From positions 1 to 64,000 of the forward strand of contig CAIZGX010000012.1 in the NCBI GenBank assembly GCA_903932685.1: DNA of 64,000 nucleotides, given 5' to 3'. Made by a program: the position numbers and the translations under genes. The notes below the pieces were generated by a model. That model worked only from the letters and a program-made list of their open reading frames with translations, ran no database searches and had not been told where the DNA came from. The DNA is from an uncultured Bacteroidota bacterium. GTDB lineage: Bacteria; Bacteroidota; Bacteroidia; Flavobacteriales_D; Sanyastnellaceae. Shown here piece after piece: positions 34,704-44,924 of the stretch. The first letter of the stretch is position 1. The number at the start of each line of letters is the position of its first letter.

Positions 34704-35246
34704 TTAGAAAGATCGATTAAACAATTTTTTTGCAGGAATGAAAATGAGCACCAACACGGGAGACTGCACAATGCCCATGATTCCGCGAACTGCCGGATAT
34801 AAGGCTTCATTCTGATGGGTGATCTTCCCGAGAATGAACGCCAGCACAGCGAGAATTAGACAGACCCCTTCCACCAATAAAAACAATTGAATTTCTTTTT
34901 TATTGAATTGAAGAAAATACAGCGCGAGAATATTGAGCAAGGTGAATGAAGCTATGGAAACGAAGGTGATGACCCACTTCAATTTAGAAAGTTCCCCTTG
35001 GTTGAATGAGTAGAGTACCTCAATGGTTTCGTGGCTGTAATAATAATCGAAATTCGATTTGCTTTTTTCCGCAGTGAGCAAATCAATTTTTGTTTCAGCA
35101 TTCTGGTTGAAAAATCCGGGAATTTGTGCGCCCTTTTCAAGAATGAAATTCACGTTCACCTTGGCTTGCTCTTGGTAAAAGCCAAGAGCAATCATTGCGA
35201 TGGCTATCGCAACGAGTATGAATTTATTTTTCTTCGGGATTGCCAT
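34704..35246 (-). CDS. exosortase F-associated membrane protein
   Basis: 180 residues from ATG 35246; a longer frame to 35393 is open but that region is inside the exosortase gene. An N-terminal membrane anchor (about 9-25) is followed by an extracytoplasmic loop of about 60 residues rich in Asn/Gln/Tyr, then three membrane segments at about 88-110, 118-140 and 155-175. Small membrane partners of this size directly follow XrtF in flavobacteria and are thought to belong to the same system. The start overlaps xrtF by 23 bases, so production is coupled. Function is unknown. Confidence 0.7.
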   Translation of the reverse strand: MAIPKKNKFILVAIAIAMIALGFYQEQAKVNVNFILEKGAQIPGFFNQNAETKIDLLTAEKSKSNFDYYYSHETIEVLYSFNQGELSKLKWVITFVSIASFTLLNILALYFLQFNKKEIQLFLLVEGVCLILAVLAFILGKITHQNEALYPAVRGIMGIVQSPVLVLIFIPAKKLFNRSF

Positions 35247-35751
35247 GTGCAGGGACATACATCTTCGACCACCACCACCAGAAGGCAAATACAACGGCAT
35301 AAACCAAAGCGGTGAACGTGTAGTCGTGATTGAATGCGAGATAGTCTTCGTTCCAATAAACAATGAAAGCAAGCGCCATAATGCGCAGAACATTCATGAA
35401 CTGGATTACGAACAGGCCTAGCGGAATGAACCAGAGTCTATTTTTGTTGGTTCCCGGATAGGCCGACACGAATATGATGAACAGGGCCATGAGTATCATT
35501 CCATCGCATGGAGCGCCCACCGTCACGCCTGCTGTGCCGTCAATGGCAATGTGGTTGCGGTAAAGTCCATCATCGAAAACGCGTAAATCGAAATTCAAAA
35601 GTCTTAAAAATGATTCTGCTCCGCGAACCAAAAGGTCTACAAGCATTTCATCAATAGCCGTTGAAGGAAGTAAATACAACTCATAAAAAAAATACCATCC
35701 GAAATAAAGGATGGTACCAATGACAAAAAATCGAATGAGTGGATTTTTCAC
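35224..35751 (-). CDS. xrtF: exosortase, XrtF type
   Basis: 175-residue integral membrane transpeptidase-like enzyme, starting at GTG. Exosortases have a Cys-Arg-His catalytic set: here Cys82 in GAPCDGM, Arg123 in NVLRIMAL and His142 in FNHDYTF, each next to membrane segments (about 8-25, 85-97, 107-130, 145-162). The short form without long N-terminal membrane region matches the XrtF group of flavobacteria. Exosortases cut exported proteins at a C-terminal sorting signal and hand them to a surface carrier. Upstream is a candidate substrate with such a tail; the whole unit faces away from a Wzc-like kinase gene. Confidence 0.85.
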   Translation of the reverse strand: MKNPLIRFFVIGTILYFGWYFFYELYLLPSTAIDEMLVDLLVRGAESFLRLLNFDLRVFDDGLYRNHIAIDGTAGVTVGAPCDGMILMALFIIFVSAYPGTNKNRLWFIPLGLFVIQFMNVLRIMALAFIVYWNEDYLAFNHDYTFTALVYAVVFAFWWWWSKMYVPAHGNPEEK

Positions 35752-35759
35752 TGAATGGG

Positions 35760-35987
35760 TTAAGAAGCTTTTTTCTTTTTAAGGTCGAAGGCTTTTTTTC
35801 CTCCAAGGGCTGCTCCAGCAGCTATTAAAAGACTAACTCCGCCATCGATTGGACAAACTGTTCCGAAGGGGCCACCACATGGCGCAGCTCCACCACTAGT
35901 CGGAGGGGGAGGAGGCTGACAAGTTCCGATCGCTGCTATGCAGAAAAGGAAAATTGACAAAACGAGTAATTTTCTAAAACGGTTCAT
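35760..35987 (-). CDS. 75-residue proline-rich protein with exosortase-type tail (PID motif)
   Basis: ATG at 35987, 4 bases after a -7 element. The product has a signal peptide (about 1-23), a run of five prolines, two Cys (37, 45), then PIDGG at 46-50, a hydrophobic stretch 51-62 (VSLLIAAGAALG) and a basic tail with six lysines. This is the order of exosortase C-terminal sorting signals, with PID in place of PEP; I recall similar short flavobacterial proteins called PID-CTERM, but could not check. It is the first gene of the xrtF operon, 8 bases before xrtF, so a substrate or system component is likely. Confidence 0.72.
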   Translation of the reverse strand: MNRFRKLLVLSIFLFCIAAIGTCQPPPPPTSGGAAPCGGPFGTVCPIDGGVSLLIAAGAALGGKKAFDLKKKKAS

Positions 35988-35991
35988 GTCA

Positions 35992-35999
35992 CAAATATA
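35992..35999 (-). promoter_or_regulatory. -7 element of xrtF operon, 4 bases before ATG
   Basis: TATATTTG on the minus strand, then TGAC, then ATG at 35987. It is back to back with the -7 element of the wzc-like gene, 62 bases away. Confidence 0.5.
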
Positions 36000-36061
36000 A
36001 CAGACTTTAATTATTTCCACGCCCATTTGGGTTAAAATCTTCATTATTGCTTCGCTTCCTT

Positions 36062-36088: not shown

Positions 36089-38509
36089 ATGGCAGAAACT
36101 AAATCGAATTTTCTAGACGCTGACGACCTCAGGCCGATAATGCGGTTCCTGAACAAAAGTTGGTTTTGGATTGTGGGGTGTGCGCTTATTGCATTCGTAG
36201 CTGCCTACTTTTATACACACAGACTTCCAAGTATTTACGCGTCGAAAACTGAGATTCTTTTACGCTCTTCAGAAACATACGATTATCAAAAAAGTATGTA
36301 CAGTGAATTGGGCTACATCTCGCTTATGCAGGACGTTACGAACCAAAAGAGAATTATTGCCTCTTACGACATCGTAGAAAAAAGTCTGGAAAAGTTAGAT
36401 TACACCATTTCGTATTATCTCGTTGGAAGGGTAAAAACCTTACAAGTAGACGAGTTCGATGCTGTAAAAGTTAAATGCGACTGGAAAAAAATGGCTTCCG
36501 GCATGTACAATGTTCCCATGAACATTAAAGTTTTAGACATGGGGCATTATGAGCTGAGTTATGAATATGCTGGTAAACTAACTTCAGCTTCTTACGAATT
36601 TGGCAAGGAGTATATGGAGCAGTTATTTACCATTCAATTGGATCTTGCTCAGCATGTAGATGAATCAAGACTGTCAACAGTTACAGATCAAAGCTTCCAG
36701 ATTCGCGTAAGGCCAATGAAGCAGCTGGTAGACAAATACATGGGAGCTCTGGTCATAGAGAATGTGGAGTATACAAGTATTCTTACCCTGACCTGTCAAG
36801 ACGAGCTGCCTACACGAGCAAAAACATTTTTAGATACGCTTGCAAAAGTGTACATCGATTATACGTTGTACAACGAAATTGCCATTAATGAAAATACTCA
36901 AGCGTACATTGACATTCAAATCAATAAAATCGTTAAGATTATTGATTCCTTGGAATTGGCAATGGAGCTGTTCAAAGACGCTCGAGATATTCTTGATTTA
37001 AGTAAAGAGCAAGATGCGGCATTTGCGGCATTGACTAGCTCAGACGTGACTCTGCGCGATTTACAATTGAGAAGGGAGTCTATTCAAGGACTGGAGAATT
37101 TCTTGTTGAAGGAACCTGACCGTGCTGTTATTCCTCCAATGAATTATTTACGTGAAGAAGACATAACCTTAACAGAATTGGTGAAGGATCTTTTCCAACT
37201 GAAACAAAAAAGGAGCTCCTTATTAGTAGATGTTAAATCACCTGACAAACGTGTTCAACGGGTAGATTCAACGCTTCAAACCATTCGAAATAGTATTTTC
37301 AAATACACGAAGGACACCAAGGTGGCCATTGATCAGCGAATTGCAGATTTGAAATTGCAGATTTTAGATTTGGAGGCTGAGTTAGCAAACATTCCTAAAA
37401 GTGAGCGGGACTTGATGTCTATAGAGCGTAAGTTGAAAGTCAACGAAGAGCTCTATACATTTTTATTGGAAAAGAAAGCCAATACTGTCATTGCTCGCGC
37501 CGCAATCATTCCTCAAACAAGTGTTATTGAAGCAGCTCGGAACATGGGAGTTGTGGGTCCAGACCGCCAGAGTATTATTTACCTTTGGATTGGAGTCGGA
37601 ATATTAATTTCGCTACTGATTGGTCTTATTCGCATGGTGTTTTTCGAGCACATCGAGCACTTGCGTGAGTTGAAACAATTGACGAAACTTCCTGTCATAA
37701 GTGGTATTCCGAATTACGAAGAAATTGAAAGAGACCCTATCGCCATCGATGCTAACCCACGTGGAAATGTAAGTGAGGCTTTCCGAACCCTTCGAACGAA
37801 TTTGCAATACCTTCTTCCCGATAGCGGACACAGTCTTATTCTTATTTCATCGCTCCATCCCGGAGAAGGAAAAACATTTGTTTCAACAAACCTTGCCGCC
37901 ACTTTGGCGAAAGCATCGAAGAAGGTGCTGCTTTTAGACTTTGACTTGCACAAGCCGAAAGTCCATAAGATGTTCCGCACCACCAACATGCAAGGGGTGA
38001 GTACCTTTCTTATTGGAAAGGCAACCTTAGAAGATTTGATTTTTCAGTCAGATATCGAAAATTTAGATGTTGTACTTGCGGGCCCCGTTCCTCCAAATGC
38101 TTCCGAGCTTTTGCTTAATTCAAGAGTAGATGAGCTCTTAGCAGAAGGATTGAAACGTTATGACTACGTAATTATTGATACTCCGCCGATCATGCTTATT
38201 ACAGACAGCTTGGTGCTCTTGTCTAAAGTTGACCGAGGTATTTTGGTAATGAATACGCTCAAGGCCACGAAACAAGGGGTCAGCTATTTGGAAGATGTAC
38301 TCACGCAGAACAGTATATCAAACACCAGTATTCTTTTGAATAACATTAAGCAAAAGCGCTGGAGATACTACTATGGCAAGTATGCCTACCGTTACGGATA
38401 TGGCTACGGATATGGTTATGGATATGGCTATGGATACGGTTATGGATACGGTTATGGTGGTTATGGTGAAGAAGGAAAGGCCAAGGGTAAGAAGAAGAAA
38501 GATAAATAA
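36089..38509 (+). CDS. Wzc-like chain-length regulator/tyrosine autokinase
   Basis: 806 residues from ATG 36089. The N-terminal Wzz part has membrane segments at about 22-45 and 500-520 enclosing a large periplasmic coiled-coil region (IADLKLQILDLEAELA). The cytoplasmic BY-kinase holds Walker A HPGEGKT near 595, Walker A' LLLDFDLHKP near 624 and Walker B VIIDTPPI near 705. The C-terminus is an extreme tyrosine cluster: 11 consecutive Tyr-Gly dipeptides plus another, then a lysine-rich end. In this family cyclic phosphorylation of such tails controls polymer export. It opens the polysaccharide region, divergent from xrtF. Confidence 0.9.
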   Translation: MAETKSNFLDADDLRPIMRFLNKSWFWIVGCALIAFVAAYFYTHRLPSIYASKTEILLRSSETYDYQKSMYSELGYISLMQDVTNQKRIIASYDIVEKSLEKLDYTISYYLVGRVKTLQVDEFDAVKVKCDWKKMASGMYNVPMNIKVLDMGHYELSYEYAGKLTSASYEFGKEYMEQLFTIQLDLAQHVDESRLSTVTDQSFQIRVRPMKQLVDKYMGALVIENVEYTSILTLTCQDELPTRAKTFLDTLAKVYIDYTLYNEIAINENTQAYIDIQINKIVKIIDSLELAMELFKDARDILDLSKEQDAAFAALTSSDVTLRDLQLRRESIQGLENFLLKEPDRAVIPPMNYLREEDITLTELVKDLFQLKQKRSSLLVDVKSPDKRVQRVDSTLQTIRNSIFKYTKDTKVAIDQRIADLKLQILDLEAELANIPKSERDLMSIERKLKVNEELYTFLLEKKANTVIARAAIIPQTSVIEAARNMGVVGPDRQSIIYLWIGVGILISLLIGLIRMVFFEHIEHLRELKQLTKLPVISGIPNYEEIERDPIAIDANPRGNVSEAFRTLRTNLQYLLPDSGHSLILISSLHPGEGKTFVSTNLAATLAKASKKVLLLDFDLHKPKVHKMFRTTNMQGVSTFLIGKATLEDLIFQSDIENLDVVLAGPVPPNASELLLNSRVDELLAEGLKRYDYVIIDTPPIMLITDSLVLLSKVDRGILVMNTLKATKQGVSYLEDVLTQNSISNTSILLNNIKQKRWRYYYGKYAYRYGYGYGYGYGYGYGYGYGYGYGGYGEEGKAKGKKKKDK
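38393..38467 (+). repeat. 12-base tandem repeat encoding Tyr-Gly tail
   Basis: Five and a half copies of a TAYGGATAYGGY unit (hexamer period TAYGGN) from 38393, ending in TATGGTGGTTATGGT. It is in frame and encodes (YG)11-G-YG. The copies differ at synonymous third positions, and the C/T changes keep long perfect repeats short. Confidence 0.9.
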
Positions 38510-38520
38510 TAGCGTAAGCC

Positions 38521-39165
38521 ATGGTATCGCTCATTATTACGACCTACAATTATGCCCATTATATCGAACGCGCTATTCGCAGTGCGCTTGATCAATCGCT
38601 CGCAAAATCGGAATACGAAATCATTGTTGTCGATGATGCCTCAACAGATGCTACTTCCCAGATCCTGGAGAACTATTCTGACGTTGTAAGGGTATTTAAT
38701 CTAAGTGAGAATTTGGGTTTAGCAGGTGCTCGGAATTATGGAATTCGCAAGGCACGTGGACAGTTCGTTGCATTTTTAGATGCAGACGATTACCTGCATT
38801 CGGAAGCGCTTCGCGTACAGAATTTATTCCTCAACGAGAACAACGCCTTCGATGCGGTGGCAATAGATTATTTTGTGGTGAATGAAAGAGGGCAGCACCT
38901 TGAACACATTTCTTCGAGCGAGAAACCTATTGCTTGTGGAATAATGTTTCGAAAAGACTATCTCTTCAACATTGGACTCTACGACGAGAATTTCACGGCG
39001 CGTGAAGAGGAGGATTTAAGGATTAGGTGGGAGCAAGCGGGTTATGGAATCTATCACATTCCAGTGCCGTTGTACAGATATCGCATGCACGAAAATAACC
39101 TCACGAAAGACAATCAGAAAATGACTGACTCTCAACTGAAATTAAATCAGAAGCACAACAGATGA
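38521..39165 (+). CDS. family 2 glycosyltransferase
   Basis: 214-residue cytoplasmic GT-A enzyme transferring a sugar from a nucleotide donor to a growing glycan. Motifs: VSLIITTYNYAHYIERAI at the start, VVDDASTD near 35-42, DADDY near 81-85 (metal-binding DxD) and REEEDLRIRWEQAGYG near 160-175 (catalytic base region). It is rather short and lacks a C-terminal membrane part. It follows the wzc-like gene by 11 bases and overlaps the GNAT gene by four, so the cassette to about 43.9 kb is one transcript. Confidence 0.9.
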   Translation: MVSLIITTYNYAHYIERAIRSALDQSLAKSEYEIIVVDDASTDATSQILENYSDVVRVFNLSENLGLAGARNYGIRKARGQFVAFLDADDYLHSEALRVQNLFLNENNAFDAVAIDYFVVNERGQHLEHISSSEKPIACGIMFRKDYLFNIGLYDENFTAREEEDLRIRWEQAGYGIYHIPVPLYRYRMHENNLTKDNQKMTDSQLKLNQKHNR

Positions 39166-39695
39166 TTAAATTTTTAGAGGGAAATCAAGTCTATCTGCGT
39201 CCGCTGACCATTGAAGATGCAAACGAGATTTATCTGAAATGGTTAAACAACGCGGAAGTAACGCGGGGTTTGGCTTCTGGTTATTTTCCAATCACACAAC
39301 AAGAGCTTATCAATTATGTAAACGGTGCCCTGGGGGATCAGAATACAATCTTTTTTGCGCTGTGCGAAAAAGAGAGCAATCGGCATATCGGAAATGTGAA
39401 AGTAGACCGCATCGATTGGATGGCTCGGAACTGTGAACTCGGTTTAATCATTGGTGAAGATTCTGCACGCGGAAGAGGCTTGGGATTTGAGTCCATGAAC
39501 CTTGTTATTCAATACATATTTGAAGACTTAAACTTGAATAAAATCACCCTTGCCGTTTTTGAGAACAATCCGAGTGCTTTGAAATTGTATGAAAAACTTG
39601 GCTTTCAAGTTGAAGGAAGATTTGTGAATCACGTGTTTAAAGAGGGTAGGCTTTGGGATAAAATCTACCTTTCATTATTCAATCCGAAAAAATAA
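39162..39695 (+). CDS. GNAT family N-acetyltransferase
   Basis: 177 residues with the RimJ/RimL-like pattern: VYLRPLTIEDANEIYLKWLNN at the start, acetyl-CoA loop IGEDSARGRGLGFESMNL near 104-121, and the family end NPSALKLYEKLGFQVEG near 143-159. In a glycan cassette it probably acetylates an amino sugar intermediate made by the aminotransferase two genes on. It overlaps both neighbours (4 bases upstream, 1 base downstream). Confidence 0.87.
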   Translation: MIKFLEGNQVYLRPLTIEDANEIYLKWLNNAEVTRGLASGYFPITQQELINYVNGALGDQNTIFFALCEKESNRHIGNVKVDRIDWMARNCELGLIIGEDSARGRGLGFESMNLVIQYIFEDLNLNKITLAVFENNPSALKLYEKLGFQVEGRFVNHVFKEGRLWDKIYLSLFNPKK

Positions 39696-40456
39696 TGAAT
39701 CTCGCGCTGCTTCAAGCCCGAATGGGTTCCACCCGGTTACCCGGAAAAGTGTTGAAGGAAATAAACGGTATTCCAATTATTCAGATTCTTATCAATCGCG
39801 TTTCTCAAGCGAAGTGTATCGATAAAATTGCAGTGGTAACATCGACGAATGATGAAGACGATGAACTTGAAAATTATTGCAATCAAAACAACATTTTAGT
39901 TTTTGGAGGTTCAGATTGGGATGTCCTCGATCGTTTCTATTCAGCAGCGAAATTTTTCGGAGCGAAGGAAGGCGACAATATCATAAGATTAACGAGCGAC
40001 TGCCCAACCCATCATGGAAGCACCGTGGATTGGGTCTTTGAGCAATTTTTTAAATTCGGAGTAGATCTGTTTTCCAACAGTAACGAAGCCCCCCTTTTCT
40101 TAGAAGATGGATTCGATGTGGAAGTGGTAAGATTCGCCGTTTTAGAAAATGCATTTCAAAACGCGAAACTTCACAGTGAACGTGAGCATGTTATTCCATA
40201 TGTGAAAAATTCAAAAAAATTCACCTTGGGTTTCCGCAAGATGAATGACAATTGTAACTACAAGCTATCTGTTGATACTCCAGCTGATTTTTCTTTTGTT
40301 GAAGCAATTTTTTCCGAATTTGGAACCCGCGATTTTGACATTCACGATGTTGTACATTTGTTAGAATCGAAACCGGAATTATTAAAGATTAACGAAGAAA
40401 GCATTATCAATGCTGGCTACGCGAAATCATTACGAGAAGATAAAATTGTGAAATGA
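39695..40456 (+). CDS. SpsF-like cytidylyltransferase
   Basis: 253 residues. The N-terminus LLQARMGSTRLPGKVLKEI (4-22) is the nucleotide-binding signature of the NTP transferase family shared with CMP-Kdo/CMP-sialate synthetases; then DNIIRLTSDCP near 94-104 and the LDRFY segment match SpsF-type proteins. They are thought to activate a sugar acid or sugar with CTP for surface glycans. The product is unknown. It overlaps the aminotransferase start by four bases. Confidence 0.83.
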   Translation: MNLALLQARMGSTRLPGKVLKEINGIPIIQILINRVSQAKCIDKIAVVTSTNDEDDELENYCNQNNILVFGGSDWDVLDRFYSAAKFFGAKEGDNIIRLTSDCPTHHGSTVDWVFEQFFKFGVDLFSNSNEAPLFLEDGFDVEVVRFAVLENAFQNAKLHSEREHVIPYVKNSKKFTLGFRKMNDNCNYKLSVDTPADFSFVEAIFSEFGTRDFDIHDVVHLLESKPELLKINEESIINAGYAKSLREDKIVK

Positions 40457-41793
40457 AAACGATCACCCTTCCACACATTACCAACTTCGCCAAGAGCGAT
40501 GAGTACAGAAATAAAATTCATGATTTAATTCCTGGGGGGGCACATACTTATTCCAAAGGTGACGATCAATTCCCCATTAAATCACCAGCTGCTATTACTC
40601 ACGCCAAAGGTGTTTATTGCTGGGATTTAGATGGAAACAAATATCTAGATACCCTTATGGGTTTGTATTCTGTTTCTTTGGGACATGCCTACGAGCCTGT
40701 TTTAGAGGCGGTGAAAAAGCAACTCGAGAAGGGTGTAAACTTTACACGTCCGAGCGTTATTGAAATGGAAATGGCAGAGAAGTTTCTCTCGCTTGTTCCC
40801 CAGCACGACATGATCAAGTTCGCGAAGAACGGTTCTGTTGCTACAACAGCGGCCATTAAACTTTCTCGCGCATACACTGGAAAACATTTGATTGCTCGCC
40901 CTGCTGAACACCCGTTCTACAGCTACGACGATTGGTTCATTGGCTCTACCGCATGTGACTTCGGTATTCCCAAAGAAATTAAGCAGTTCACCATTACGTA
41001 CAAGCAAGATTCGTTGGAAGACTTGGAACGCATGTTCAATGAATATCCGGGACAAATAGCCTGTGTCATTTCAGAACCTGAAAAATGGAATGTTCTAGAA
41101 CCTGATTTTTATAAGAAGGCCATTGACCTTGCTCACAAGAACGGTGCAATGTGGATCATGGATGAAATGATTACGGGATTCAAATCTGATTTTCCAGGAT
41201 CCATAAAAAAATTCAATGCAGAACCCGATTTCTGCACATGGGGAAAAGGCATTGCAAACGGATTTTCTTTCTGCGCCCTTACGGGCAAAAAGGAGATTAT
41301 GGAATACGGCGGTATTCGAAGAAAAGGCGAACCAAAAGTATTTTTAGTAAGCACCACACACGGTGGTGAAACGCATGGAATTGCCGCTGCTCTAGCCACA
41401 ATTAATGTGTTTGAAAACAATCCAGTTATTCAACACAACCACGCCATTGGAGATTACTTCATGAACGGTGTGAAAGGAATTTTATCTCGAAGAAAATTGG
41501 AAGATTATTTCGAGTTAACCGGATTCAATTGGTGTGTAGGATTGGTGGTGAAGAATCAGAAGAAAGAACCTTGCATGTTCTACAGAACCCTGTTCATGCA
41601 GGAAATGATTCAACGCGGTGTTCTTTATCAGGGAATTCTTTCTCCAAGTTTCTCGCATACACAAGACGATATAGATTTTATGTTAGCTGCTTTCGATGAA
41701 AGTTGCGAAGTGTTTGAACGCGCGTTGGAAGACGGCGTAGAGAAGTATTTAGTGGGTGAAGAAATTAAGCCTGTTTTCCGAAAAATTAATTAA
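40453..41793 (+). CDS. class-III PLP aminotransferase (GSA-aminomutase-like) of glycan cassette
   Basis: 446 residues. PLP motifs: KNGSVATTAAIKLSRAYTG near 122-140, MDEMITGFK near 236-244 (Asp contacting the pyridine N) and the Schiff-base Lys in TWGKGIANGFSF near 272. The sequence type is that of glutamate-1-semialdehyde aminomutase, but the insertion pattern and the neighbours argue against a haem role. It likely transaminates a keto-sugar intermediate. Ends one base before the next start. Confidence 0.83.
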   Translation: MKTITLPHITNFAKSDEYRNKIHDLIPGGAHTYSKGDDQFPIKSPAAITHAKGVYCWDLDGNKYLDTLMGLYSVSLGHAYEPVLEAVKKQLEKGVNFTRPSVIEMEMAEKFLSLVPQHDMIKFAKNGSVATTAAIKLSRAYTGKHLIARPAEHPFYSYDDWFIGSTACDFGIPKEIKQFTITYKQDSLEDLERMFNEYPGQIACVISEPEKWNVLEPDFYKKAIDLAHKNGAMWIMDEMITGFKSDFPGSIKKFNAEPDFCTWGKGIANGFSFCALTGKKEIMEYGGIRRKGEPKVFLVSTTHGGETHGIAAALATINVFENNPVIQHNHAIGDYFMNGVKGILSRRKLEDYFELTGFNWCVGLVVKNQKKEPCMFYRTLFMQEMIQRGVLYQGILSPSFSHTQDDIDFMLAAFDESCEVFERALEDGVEKYLVGEEIKPVFRKIN

Positions 41794-41794
41794 C

Positions 41795-42619
41795 ATGGAA
41801 CCACTTCGAACAACAGACGCAACGCAAATCGACTTCAAGAAAAAATTCGATTTAACGGACAAAGTTATTGTCATTACCGGTGCATGCGGATTGGTGGGAA
41901 GAGCCTTCTGCGAAGCTGTTGCGCAATTCGGAGGAATAGTTGTTGCGGCTGATATTGAATTAGCGAATCCGGTTCAATTTGCGAGTGAGGTTGCTGCACG
42001 CAACAATACAAAAGCACTTGGTTTTGTCCTCGATGTGGCCAACAGATCTTCTGTTGAAGCGTTGAAAGAAAGCGTACTGTCTTCTTTCGGAAGAATTGAC
42101 GGATTGGTGAATGCGCATCAGAATAAGACGCATTTGAAATTCGAGCCGTTTGAAAGTGTGTCCGATGAAAATTGGGACACTGTTGTAGATGTGAATTTGA
42201 AAGGCACGTTTTTAATGTGTCAAATTATTGGCTGCCACATGGCAGAGAACGGCGGCGGAAGTGTTGTGAATATTCCTTCCACCTACAGCGTCGTTGCACC
42301 GAATCAGAATTTATACAAAGGAACATCCTTGGGTTGTCCCGCCGCTTATAGCGCCTCGAAAGGCGGTATTGACGCACTTTCCAGATACTTGGCTTCATAC
42401 TGGGCAACGAAGAAAGTGCGTGTAAATATGATTACTCCACACGGTGTGTGGAACAATCATGAAGTGCAATTCGAAGAAAATTTCGCGCGCTTCTCTCCCA
42501 TGGAAAGATTGAGTTACAATCACGAAGTGGCAAGCGCGCTCATTTATTTACTCAGCGATGCTTCCTCGTATGTTACCGGAGATAACATGAAGGTTGAAGG
42601 CGGTTGGACCGTTTGGTGA
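41795..42619 (+). CDS. short-chain dehydrogenase of glycan cassette
   Basis: 274 residues from ATG 41795. The first 25 residues are an extra N-terminal stretch; the cofactor motif is TGACGLVGRAF near 34-44, followed by a catalytic YSASKGG near 188-194 and the C-terminal DNMKVEGGWTVW typical of SDR enzymes. It probably reduces or oxidises a sugar ring or its nucleotide form. It is followed by the DUF4910 gene one base away. Confidence 0.85.
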   Translation: MEPLRTTDATQIDFKKKFDLTDKVIVITGACGLVGRAFCEAVAQFGGIVVAADIELANPVQFASEVAARNNTKALGFVLDVANRSSVEALKESVLSSFGRIDGLVNAHQNKTHLKFEPFESVSDENWDTVVDVNLKGTFLMCQIIGCHMAENGGGSVVNIPSTYSVVAPNQNLYKGTSLGCPAAYSASKGGIDALSRYLASYWATKKVRVNMITPHGVWNNHEVQFEENFARFSPMERLSYNHEVASALIYLLSDASSYVTGDNMKVEGGWTVW

Positions 42620-42620
42620 T

Positions 42621-43901
42621 ATGCAGGAAAAATTAGCGACATATTTTGAAAAGCTTTGGCCCATTTGCCGAAGCATCACAGGAAACGGATTGCGCGAATC
42701 GTTTCGCACTCTGCAAGAAATTGTTCCGTTCGAATTAACCGAAGTTCCAACCGGAACCCAAGTGCACGATTGGGAAATTCCGAAAGAATGGAACATTCAA
42801 GACGCATTCATCCTTACCCCAGATGGAAGGAAAGTTGCCGATTTCAAATTGAATAATCTACACGTGTTGAATTATTCAACTCCTGTCGACATGGAAGTCA
42901 CTCACGAAGAACTTTCGAAACACATCTTCACACTTCCAGAACAGCCAACAGCCATTCCATATGTGACTTCATACTACGAAGAGAAGTGGGGATTCTGCCT
43001 TTCGCACAACGAGTGGATTTCCCTTCCAAAAGAAGGAATGTATCGCGTGGTTATTCAATCGGAATTAACTCAAGGTAGCCTTACATATGGTGAAGCAATA
43101 CTTAAAGGCGATTCAGAAAAAGAAATTCTTTTTTATTCTTATTTGTGTCATCCAAGCATGGCGAACAACGAGCTCAGCGGTCCTTTGGTCTTAGCCATGC
43201 TCTATGAAAAACTGGCCGCCCTTCCACAAAGAAAATATACCTATCGATTTGTTCTTGCGCCGGAAACCATTGGTTCAATTGCATACTTGTCGAAGAACGG
43301 ACAAGCGTTGAAAGAAAAGCTTCAAGCAGGTTGGGTACTCACGTGCTGCGGCGATGCTGGAAAAATTCATTACAAGAATTCACGCCAAGGAAACGCATTG
43401 GTAGACCGCATTAGCAAACACATTTTAAATCAACTCCCACTGCAGTGGAACGATTTAGAATTTTCTGTGGGAGGAAGCGACGAGCGTCAGTTTTGTTCTC
43501 CAGGCTACAATTTGCCTGTGGGTTCATTCATGCGCTCGCCTTACCAGCGTTATGCGCAATACCACACATCTTTGGACAACCGCGATTTCATTTCCATTCC
43601 TGCTATGGAAGAGGGAGTAGAAATTTTATTCCAAATGGTATTGGCCCTTGAAATAAACGAAACCTACGAAGCAGTTGTTCAATACGGAGAACCGCAATTG
43701 GGTAAGCGCGGATTGTATCCGACTTCGAACATGCCGAACACAGACCAGCGACAAATGATTCACAACATGATGCACCTCATCAATTGGTCAGACGGTGAAC
43801 ACGATTTGTTAAGCATAGCTGAAAAAAAAGGCACTGCTATGTTTTATTTTGCCCCTTTGGCTAAACTTTGCGAAGAGAAGGGTGTTCTTAGAAGGAAGTA
43901 A
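42621..43901 (+). CDS. DUF4910-type aminopeptidase-like hydrolase
   Basis: 426 residues from ATG 42621. The N-terminus ITGNGLRESF..VPTGTQVHDWEIP and the M28-like core CHPSMANNELSGP (His177; Asn183 where M28 enzymes usually have Asp) with APETIGS (Glu215), then GGSDERQFCSPG near 290, match the DUF4910/DUF2172 family found in surface-glycan gene clusters. No signal peptide, so it works in the cytoplasm. Its substrate is unknown; hydrolysis of an amide on a sugar or cofactor is possible, since peptide cleavage makes little sense here. Confidence 0.78.
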   Translation: MQEKLATYFEKLWPICRSITGNGLRESFRTLQEIVPFELTEVPTGTQVHDWEIPKEWNIQDAFILTPDGRKVADFKLNNLHVLNYSTPVDMEVTHEELSKHIFTLPEQPTAIPYVTSYYEEKWGFCLSHNEWISLPKEGMYRVVIQSELTQGSLTYGEAILKGDSEKEILFYSYLCHPSMANNELSGPLVLAMLYEKLAALPQRKYTYRFVLAPETIGSIAYLSKNGQALKEKLQAGWVLTCCGDAGKIHYKNSRQGNALVDRISKHILNQLPLQWNDLEFSVGGSDERQFCSPGYNLPVGSFMRSPYQRYAQYHTSLDNRDFISIPAMEEGVEILFQMVLALEINETYEAVVQYGEPQLGKRGLYPTSNMPNTDQRQMIHNMMHLINWSDGEHDLLSIAEKKGTAMFYFAPLAKLCEEKGVLRRK

Positions 43902-43940: not shown

Positions 43941-44924
43941 ATGAAATCATTAGTAGAAGCTTTTCCAACACATTTGAAAGAAGCCTTGGCAATAGGTCAA
44001 AGCGCGACATTCACAAACACCGACAAACAATTTGAGAACATTGTTATCTCTGGTTTAGGAGGTTCAGGTATCGGCGGAAAGATTGTTTCTCAATTGGTAG
44101 CAGACGATTGCTGCCTGCCTATTCTTTGCACGAACGACTACGTTCTTCCTGCATTCGTAGGCCCTAAGACATTGGTTATTATTTCTAGTTATAGCGGTGA
44201 AACAGAAGAAACTGTTGCAGCATACAACGAAGCGAAAGCAAAAGGCGCAACCATTTCTTGTATCACAAGTGGGGGTAAAATTGCAGCAGCAGCGGCAGCA
44301 GACGGATACAACTGCATCATTATTCCGGGTGGACAACCGCCAAGAAGTATGTTCGGTTATAGCTCTGTTCAAGTGTTATTCACTTTAAAGGCATACGGAA
44401 TTTACAACGGAAATTTCGAAGCGGAAATCAGCAATTCAATCGATTTGATTCACGCTGAAATCGCGAACATTCGCACCGAGACGAAATCAATCGCAGAGAA
44501 AATTGTTTCTCGCATCCCTGTATTGTACAGCGAAGCGAGCTACGAAGGCGTTGCTATTCGTTGGAGACAACAGATCAACGAGAACTCGAAAATGCTTTGC
44601 TGGCACCACGTTTTCCCAGAGATGAATCACAACGAGTTGGTGGGCTGGACAGGCGGAGACAACCGCGTTGCGGTGTTAATGCTTCGCACAGAAGATGATC
44701 ACAAGCGTTCACAAATTCGCATGGACATCTGTAAAAAATTAATGGCTGAAAAGTGCGATACGATTATTGAAATCCACGCGAAAGGTTCAAGCAGACTTGA
44801 AAGAGCTTACTACTTGATTCACTTAGGTGACTGGTTAACAATAGATCTTGCTGAATTGCGTAACGAAGACGCTACGGCTATTCCAGCAATTATTTTCTTG
44901 AAAAACGAGCTTTCGAAAATATGA
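43941..44924 (+). CDS. bifunctional phosphoglucose/phosphomannose isomerase
   Basis: 327 residues from ATG 43941 (a TTG seven codons earlier is less likely). SIS domain motif [15 protein letters not shown] near 35-49, SYSGETEET near 83-91, and the family C-terminus [31 protein letters not shown] near 285-315. Such proteins interconvert fructose-6-P with glucose-6-P or mannose-6-P and here could supply sugar precursors to the polysaccharide genes upstream. lipB follows with a four-base overlap. Confidence 0.9.

Follow-up and report, generated by a model that had tools for sequence, protein, structure and literature searches.

What do six tightly packed genes of an uncultured Bacteroidota bacterium produce, if their products are those expected for an activated surface sugar and yet match no complete known pathway? 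The genes occupy positions 38,521 to 43,901 of the 64,000-nucleotide stretch analysed here, hereafter the window (positions 1 to 64,000 of contig CAIZGX010000012.1, GenBank assembly GCA_903932685.1, family Sanyastnellaceae). We consider it probable that they form part of a split pathway for a nonulosonic acid (NulO, a sialic-acid-like sugar acid) linked to cytidine monophosphate (CMP), with an optional block that adds an amine and N-acylates it. This reading is based on gene content, synteny, the co-occurrence of the synthase NeuB with the aminotransferase and the DUF4910 protein, and the joint absence of the block from the minimal loci that we read; from these observations we infer the reactions, their order and the position modified. 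The six genes are as follows.

38521..39165, + strand, short family-2 glycosyltransferase (GT2; PF00535, 122 bits), core gene
39162..39695, + strand, GNAT N-acetyltransferase (PF13302), optional block
39695..40456, + strand, SpsF-like cytidylyltransferase (CTP_transf_3; PF02348, 90 bits), core gene
40453..41793, + strand, class-III pyridoxal phosphate (PLP) aminotransferase (AT) of the HemL-like PRK06209 family (NF004856), optional block
41795..42619, + strand, short-chain dehydrogenase/reductase (SDR; PF13561, 150 bits), optional block
42621..43901, + strand, DUF4910/DUF2172/HTH_47 protein with an M28-like fold (PF16254, 315 bits), core gene

All six open reading frames are intact and lie on the + strand, with junctions of −4, −1, −4, +1 and +1 bases in gene order, confirming the co-directional, tightly packed run described in an earlier note on this sequence. 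The family assignments are far above the Pfam cut-offs, and Pfam and NCBIfam agree for every one of them. AT passed the cut-off of NCBIfam PRK06209/NF004856 (541 versus 486 bits); its PLP lysine is K265 in the alignment with HemL structures, and its closest solved structures are glutamate-1-semialdehyde 2,1-aminomutases. Identity with the heme enzyme HemL itself was rejected, as TIGR00713 gave just 178 of 527 bits. By its PF02348 match, the SpsF-like protein belongs to the cytidylyltransferases of the CMP-NulO/Kdo family, with predicted use of cytidine triphosphate (CTP); a search of its own genome detected two CTP_transf_3 genes, this one and KdsB. The GNAT protein scored 80 bits against the PseH model, below the cut-off of 93.1.

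The window cassette itself contains no NeuB and no NeuC. The genome beyond the window was covered by family-by-family searches, which detected two NeuB-family genes, on contigs C41 and C4. The C41 NeuB (C41:7421-8470) matches PF03102 with 242 bits and carries an SAF domain, and its His-containing motifs SDHT and EKHFT align with solved NeuB; the genome thus encodes a NeuB+SAF enzyme, as expected in general for a CMP-nonulosonic acid pathway, and this enzyme is linked with the cassette. In the sister genome G045, of the same family, the gene order is Wzc-GT2-GNAT-SpsF-AT-SDR-NeuB-DUF4910-Wzx, with AT, SDR and DUF4910 that are 76%, 80% and 57% identical to those of the window. The NeuB gene of G045 begins at the position where the window has DUF4910: the two sequences share the SDR end, GGTTGGACCGTTTGGTGATA, and then part. 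This in-cassette NeuB is 74% identical to the C41 copy and 29% identical to the C4 copy. NeuB also lies outside the cassette in two close relatives (L065, with AT 98% and NeuB 95% identical to those of the window genome, and L067, with 89% and 79%), where its neighbour is the membrane-protein gene that it also has on C41, and the split is therefore no artefact of assembly in a single genome. A pathway without NeuB was rejected on the basis of the in-cassette NeuB of G045 and the co-occurrence of NeuB across genomes. The C4 copy is a possible but disfavoured candidate for the NeuB of the pathway, being 29% identical to the cassette NeuB and having a relative with a KdsC-like phosphatase. This C4 NeuB (L037:9222-10271), 29% identical to the C41 NeuB, stands alone next to a gene of the IspD type. 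In L189, a relative with 61% identity to it is accompanied by a KdsC-like HAD phosphatase, which suggests a route through a phosphorylated intermediate for the C4-type NeuB.

A genome scan with an alignment of AT yielded 80 loci from other genomes, which were sorted by their neighbours into types A, B and C. Type A, the type of the window, comprises 24 loci. SpsF-AT-SDR was contiguous in 15 of the 80 loci and GT2-GNAT-SpsF-AT-SDR in 11; this contiguity recurs in other genomes, and the arrangement is not due to chance. In relatives, the SDR adjoining AT is 70–80% identical to that of the window. Type B corresponds to pseudaminic acid clusters with PseB, PseC, NeuB, an aldo/keto reductase, SpsF and AT, and type C (Rhizobiales and others) has DUF4910, AT and PIG-L with no adjoining NeuB. 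A C41-type NeuB (at least 63% identical) was detected in 21 of the 24 type-A genomes, as a partial gene in two of them, and in none of the six type-C genomes.

In an order-wide sample of 299 genomes, NeuB was present in 42, AT in 30 and DUF4910 in 46. Two of the 30 AT genomes carry type-B SpsF-AT fusions, as judged by length; among the other 28, all with type-A AT, NeuB was detected in 27 and DUF4910 in 28, and the single genome without NeuB (G532) is a metagenome-assembled genome (MAG) that is 84% complete. DUF4910 was present in 39 of the 42 NeuB genomes, and is associated with NeuB more tightly than with AT. Fisher p values for co-occurrence ranged from 1e-24 to 1e-38, with kinship uncorrected among related, non-independent genomes. 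In a tree of 44 NeuBs, the cassette-linked NeuBs group together in a single clade (support 100/99) that excludes the PseI-type and LegI-type sequences. Three NeuB genomes have no DUF4910: in G379 the contig stops right after NeuB, and in G352 and G459 NeuB adjoins a PseF-PseG-like fusion. Such PseF-like/PseG-like fusions beside NeuB lie at L190:7891-9510 and L191:5246-6874, both in genomes of this NeuB clade without DUF4910, which suggests that the fusion substitutes for SpsF plus DUF4910.

Comparison of the loci divides the genes into a four-gene core (GT2, SpsF, NeuB and DUF4910) and a three-gene optional block (GNAT, AT and SDR). Among the minimal loci, G350 and G362 carry Wzc-GT2-SpsF-DUF4910 and encode NeuB at a different site in the genome, and G424, G427, G448, G454 and G568 have GT2-NeuB at one place and DUF4910-SpsF at another; in all of these, GNAT, AT and SDR are jointly absent, and AT is absent from the whole genomes. 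Across split cassettes, the neighbour pairs NeuB-DUF4910, DUF4910-SpsF and GT2-NeuB recur. What had been taken as a compact cassette is indeed a packed run, but is really one part of this core plus block. The NeuBs of the minimal loci are 71–78% identical to that of the window genome, as are the NeuBs of block-bearing genomes; since presence or absence of the block makes little difference to this closeness, the block probably acts after the condensation by NeuB. A different HemL-like aminotransferase (28–29% identical) lies alongside GNAT, SDR, NeuB and DUF4910 in G415 and G471, and a formyltransferase occupies the GNAT slot in L069 and L070 (PF00551 in L069). The joint absence, the replacement of AT and the formyltransferase swap are as expected for a block that would oxidize, aminate and acylate.

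In the proposed split pathway, the C41 NeuB would condense phosphoenolpyruvate with an amino sugar as acceptor, yielding a 2-keto-3-deoxy sugar acid of nine carbons; SpsF would activate this NulO with CTP, and GT2 would transfer it onto a surface glycan. The adjacent Wzc would handle this glycan; in relatives, alternative exporters would take this role. DUF4910, as a core member, would have as its substrate a sugar intermediate that is N-acylated or activated. Within the block, SDR would oxidize a hydroxyl of the NulO to a ketone, AT would aminate this ketone, and the new amine would be acetylated by GNAT, with the formyltransferase in its stead in two relatives. In type B, AT comes in addition to a full set of pseudaminic acid genes and an aldo/keto reductase, and since that pathway already places amines at C5 and C7, C8 is the likely free position. 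We tentatively name C8 as the most likely single site of the additional N-acylated amino group, while regarding this placement as somewhat doubtful. In Acinetobacter, a CTP_transf plus aldo/keto reductase protein (EpaA) and an SDR (EpaB) alter C8 of pseudaminic acid, showing that C8 can be a target of the partner enzyme families (PMC12053666). An 8-amino NulO has been reported from the O-antigen of a member of the Bacteroidota, Flexibacter (Tenacibaculum) maritimus, and the sugar 8-amino-Kdo is described in the same source (PMC3210612). Literature searches on AT or on 8-amino NulO biosynthesis turned up no pathway paper.

The order of the steps could also be reversed, with SDR and AT acting before NeuB to make an unusual amino-hexose acceptor, after which the NulO would be condensed, activated and transferred without more amination. 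The best score of GNAT, that with PseH, an enzyme acting on a uridine diphosphate (UDP)-amino sugar before NeuB, is consistent with such an order, as is the finding that the standard acceptor is not supplied by NeuC or PseB. However, the relatives described above that have NeuB of the same clade do without SDR, AT and GNAT, and AT in the pseudaminic acid clusters comes on top of a complete acceptor pathway; we regard this order as unlikely. A further alternative concerns AT itself, which may act, after oxidation, as an aminomutase that shifts an existing amine from C7 to C8 with no third amine added. Glutamate-1-semialdehyde 2,1-aminomutases, its closest solved structures, do perform a vicinal amino shift, and an oxidoreductase partner is nearby in types A and B; yet the superfamily also includes ordinary transaminases, sugar C-6' aminotransferases among them, and the exchange of GNAT for a formyltransferase suggests a new free amine, making the aminomutase very unlikely. 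It is highly improbable that SpsF and the block convert the octulosonic acid Kdo to 8-amino-Kdo with NeuB uninvolved, as in Shewanella, where an alcohol dehydrogenase and an aminotransferase make this sugar. SpsF does score, weakly, against KdsB models, but NeuB lies within the cassettes of relatives with near-perfect co-occurrence and the window genome has a separate KdsB.

Several points weigh against the CMP-NulO pathway with its optional block. GT2 enzymes mostly take nucleoside diphosphate-sugars, not CMP-sugars, and a second NeuB, on C4, is present in the window genome. Three of the 24 cassette-bearing MAGs have no NeuB orthologue, with incompleteness as a possible cause. No NeuC above the cut-off and no dedicated PseB was found that would supply the NeuB acceptor, PseG not having been searched genome-wide. 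Finally, in Legionella serogroup 6 a similar cluster includes an annotated glutamate-1-semialdehyde aminomutase, but the sugar reported for all serogroups is legionaminic acid (PMC3694923).

The cassette and the C41 NeuB together match no complete known pathway. With respect to N-acetylneuraminic acid, no hydrolysing NeuC epimerase above the cut-off was detected in the window genome, whose only Epimerase_2 protein is of the WecB type (243 bits, against 54 of 236 with the NeuC model), and the C41 NeuB falls below the NeuB_NnaB equivalog cut-off (316.9 versus 399.65 bits). NeuC passed the cut-off in one of the 22 genomes of the set, where it is part of a distinct cluster of the Leg type that has a NeuB of its own (L209). 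With respect to pseudaminic acid, the C41 NeuB is not of the PseI type by model (227.5 of 340 bits), and a dedicated PseB is absent from the window genome, the best match there being a 621-aa dehydratase with 35% identity; a dedicated PseB was found in one of the 10 genomes tested. For Campylobacter-type legionaminic acid, neither the LegG/NeuC epimerase nor a LegI-clade NeuB was found, PtmE not having been searched genome-wide. The claims of the earlier note that no complete known pathway and no NeuC-type epimerase are present are in agreement with these results, while its claim that there is no NeuB-type enzyme holds for the cassette but not for the genome, which has the C41 orthologue of the G045 cassette NeuB. 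Genes of a known pathway lying outside the window had been named as evidence to the contrary, and NeuB was indeed found there; yet this does not complete the Neu or the Leg pathway, because no NeuC is above the cut-off, and PseB is missing too. The suggested product, a CMP-linked N-acyl amino sugar acid, is supported.

The DUF4910, DUF2172 and HTH_47 domains of the window protein are all above their cut-offs, and its solved homologue is CA_C2195 (3k9t, 359 bits), which binds one Zn via His189, Asp195 and His324 and is without the catalytic residues of M28 (PMC4000134). These ligands were observed in the solved protein; the Pfam model does not require them. In the window protein, both His are kept and Asp195 is replaced by Asn183; all 33 distinct type-A DUF4910 proteins have CHPSMANNE, with Asn for Asp195, and six type-C proteins have CHPSLANDN. 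Judging from these residues, type-A DUF4910 may have a different metal site or activity. It is conceivable, although rather unlikely, that DUF4910 is a metal-dependent hydrolase of a new kind that replaces NeuC/PseG, releasing or deacylating the acceptor for the distinct NeuB clade, with the optional SDR/AT/acyltransferase block adding a further acylated amine; if so, the DUF4910 hydrolase and this clade would constitute a further route to sialic-acid-like sugars. A conserved protein of 450–480 aa with no Pfam match follows DUF4910 at L181:9513-10937 and L089:13441-14841, and in L205, L206 and L210.

Das et al. (2014) described that CA_C2195 of Clostridium acetobutylicum neighbours SpsE (NeuB), SpsF, glycosyltransferases and aminosugar N-acetyltransferases, as DUF4910 does in the present loci, and proposed a modification of surface sugars (PMC4000134). 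That neighbourhood lists no class-III aminotransferase/SDR block, whereas the window type has Asn for Asp195 and NeuB can be on another contig. The earlier note called the role of DUF4910 undefined, which stands in so far as we only infer one, but the association of this family with sugar genes was thus already known. The legionaminic acid pathway of the Bacillus subtilis sps genes shares the SpsE-type NeuB and the SpsF cytidylyltransferase, but has SpsM, SpsC, SpsD and SpsG for upstream steps, whereas the window adds DUF4910, AT and SDR (PMC7439481); no SpsM/SpsC/SpsG-like gene adjoins the window cassette. Pseudaminic acid clusters of Chitinophaga and Flavobacterium (L079, L086, L096, L106 and others) share the AT family (approximately 60% identical), SpsF and a NeuB-type synthase, but have PseB and PseC adjoining, an aldo/keto reductase for SDR and mostly no DUF4910. 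EpaA/EpaB and AciE of Acinetobacter baumannii likewise combine a cytidylyltransferase domain with an oxidoreductase, and have an SDR that modifies a NulO at C8; there, however, C8 is epimerized with no aminotransferase, and the comparison with the window SDR is at the level of the enzyme family (PMC12053666). The CMP-legionaminic acid pathway of Campylobacter and Plesiomonas shares the NeuB-type LegI, the cytidylyltransferase LegF and the SDR PtmA, but the window cassette has no LegG/NeuC, PtmE or PtmF in its vicinity, and the NeuB of the window genome is in a different clade. A legionaminic-type cluster with AT added was detected at L040. What is new is that NeuB is linked to the cassette even where the locus is split, that the genes divide into a core and a block in which the acyltransferase can be swapped, and that NeuC is lacking.

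Two further genes flank the cassette:

36089..38509, + strand, Wzc-like polysaccharide co-polymerase/tyrosine autokinase (Pfam AAA_31 and Wzz; TIGR01007, 171 bits)
43941..44924, + strand, bifunctional phosphoglucose/phosphomannose isomerase (PF10432; NF006426, 320 bits)

The Wzc gene starts the same run, with an 11-base gap before GT2, and has the same position in relatives (L043, L065, L067, L068, L071, L187, L188 and L192-L194). The isomerase gene begins 39 bases after DUF4910 and adjoins the cassette in the close relatives L065 and L067 only, and is probably not a member of the pathway. Divergent beside Wzc are genes for exosortase X (174 bits, above the cut-off) and a PID-CTERM protein (window 35224-36044, − strand); small divergent genes of a similar kind flank Wzc in L043 and L192-L194. 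Rfam yielded no match for a regulatory RNA in the window, and promoter and terminator patterns occurred at the counts expected from shuffled sequence. Phage searches with the type-B aldo/keto reductase (EpaA-like genes) gave no match, those with SDR gave only matches of approximately 30–39% identity, of unclear function, and those with AT gave a single 41% match, an unannotated faecal record.

Other arrangements of these families were also observed. Fusion of SpsF and AT into a single protein is common among Flavobacterium-type pseudaminic acid clusters (L087, L096, L101, L103, L106, L108, L111 and L112), and L103 is a triple fusion of SpsF, AT and an aldo/keto reductase. Type-C loci with DUF4910, AT and a PIG-L deacetylase and no C41-type NeuB (L136, L138, L139, L141-L144 and L039) are found in Rhizobiales, a cyanobacterium, Anaerolineae and one genome of the phylum of the window; AT is also carried on Rhizobium/Shinella megaplasmids. 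Clusters L047, L048 and L049 have SpsF, transketolase halves, a class-III AT (30–34%), SDR, a KdsC-like phosphatase and NeuB in this order (no NeuB was called in L049), and represent another, unexplored layout of a sugar-acid pathway.

With the split pathway proposed here, an odd list of sugar genes becomes a pathway that can be tested and whose missing enzyme has a name, and the orphan DUF4910 family gains a core place beside a NeuB clade without the usual NeuC. Enzymes are thereby proposed for amino-substituted NulOs such as the 8-amino sugar of Flexibacter (Tenacibaculum) maritimus, a class of surface antigens that often decide the recognition of a bacterium.

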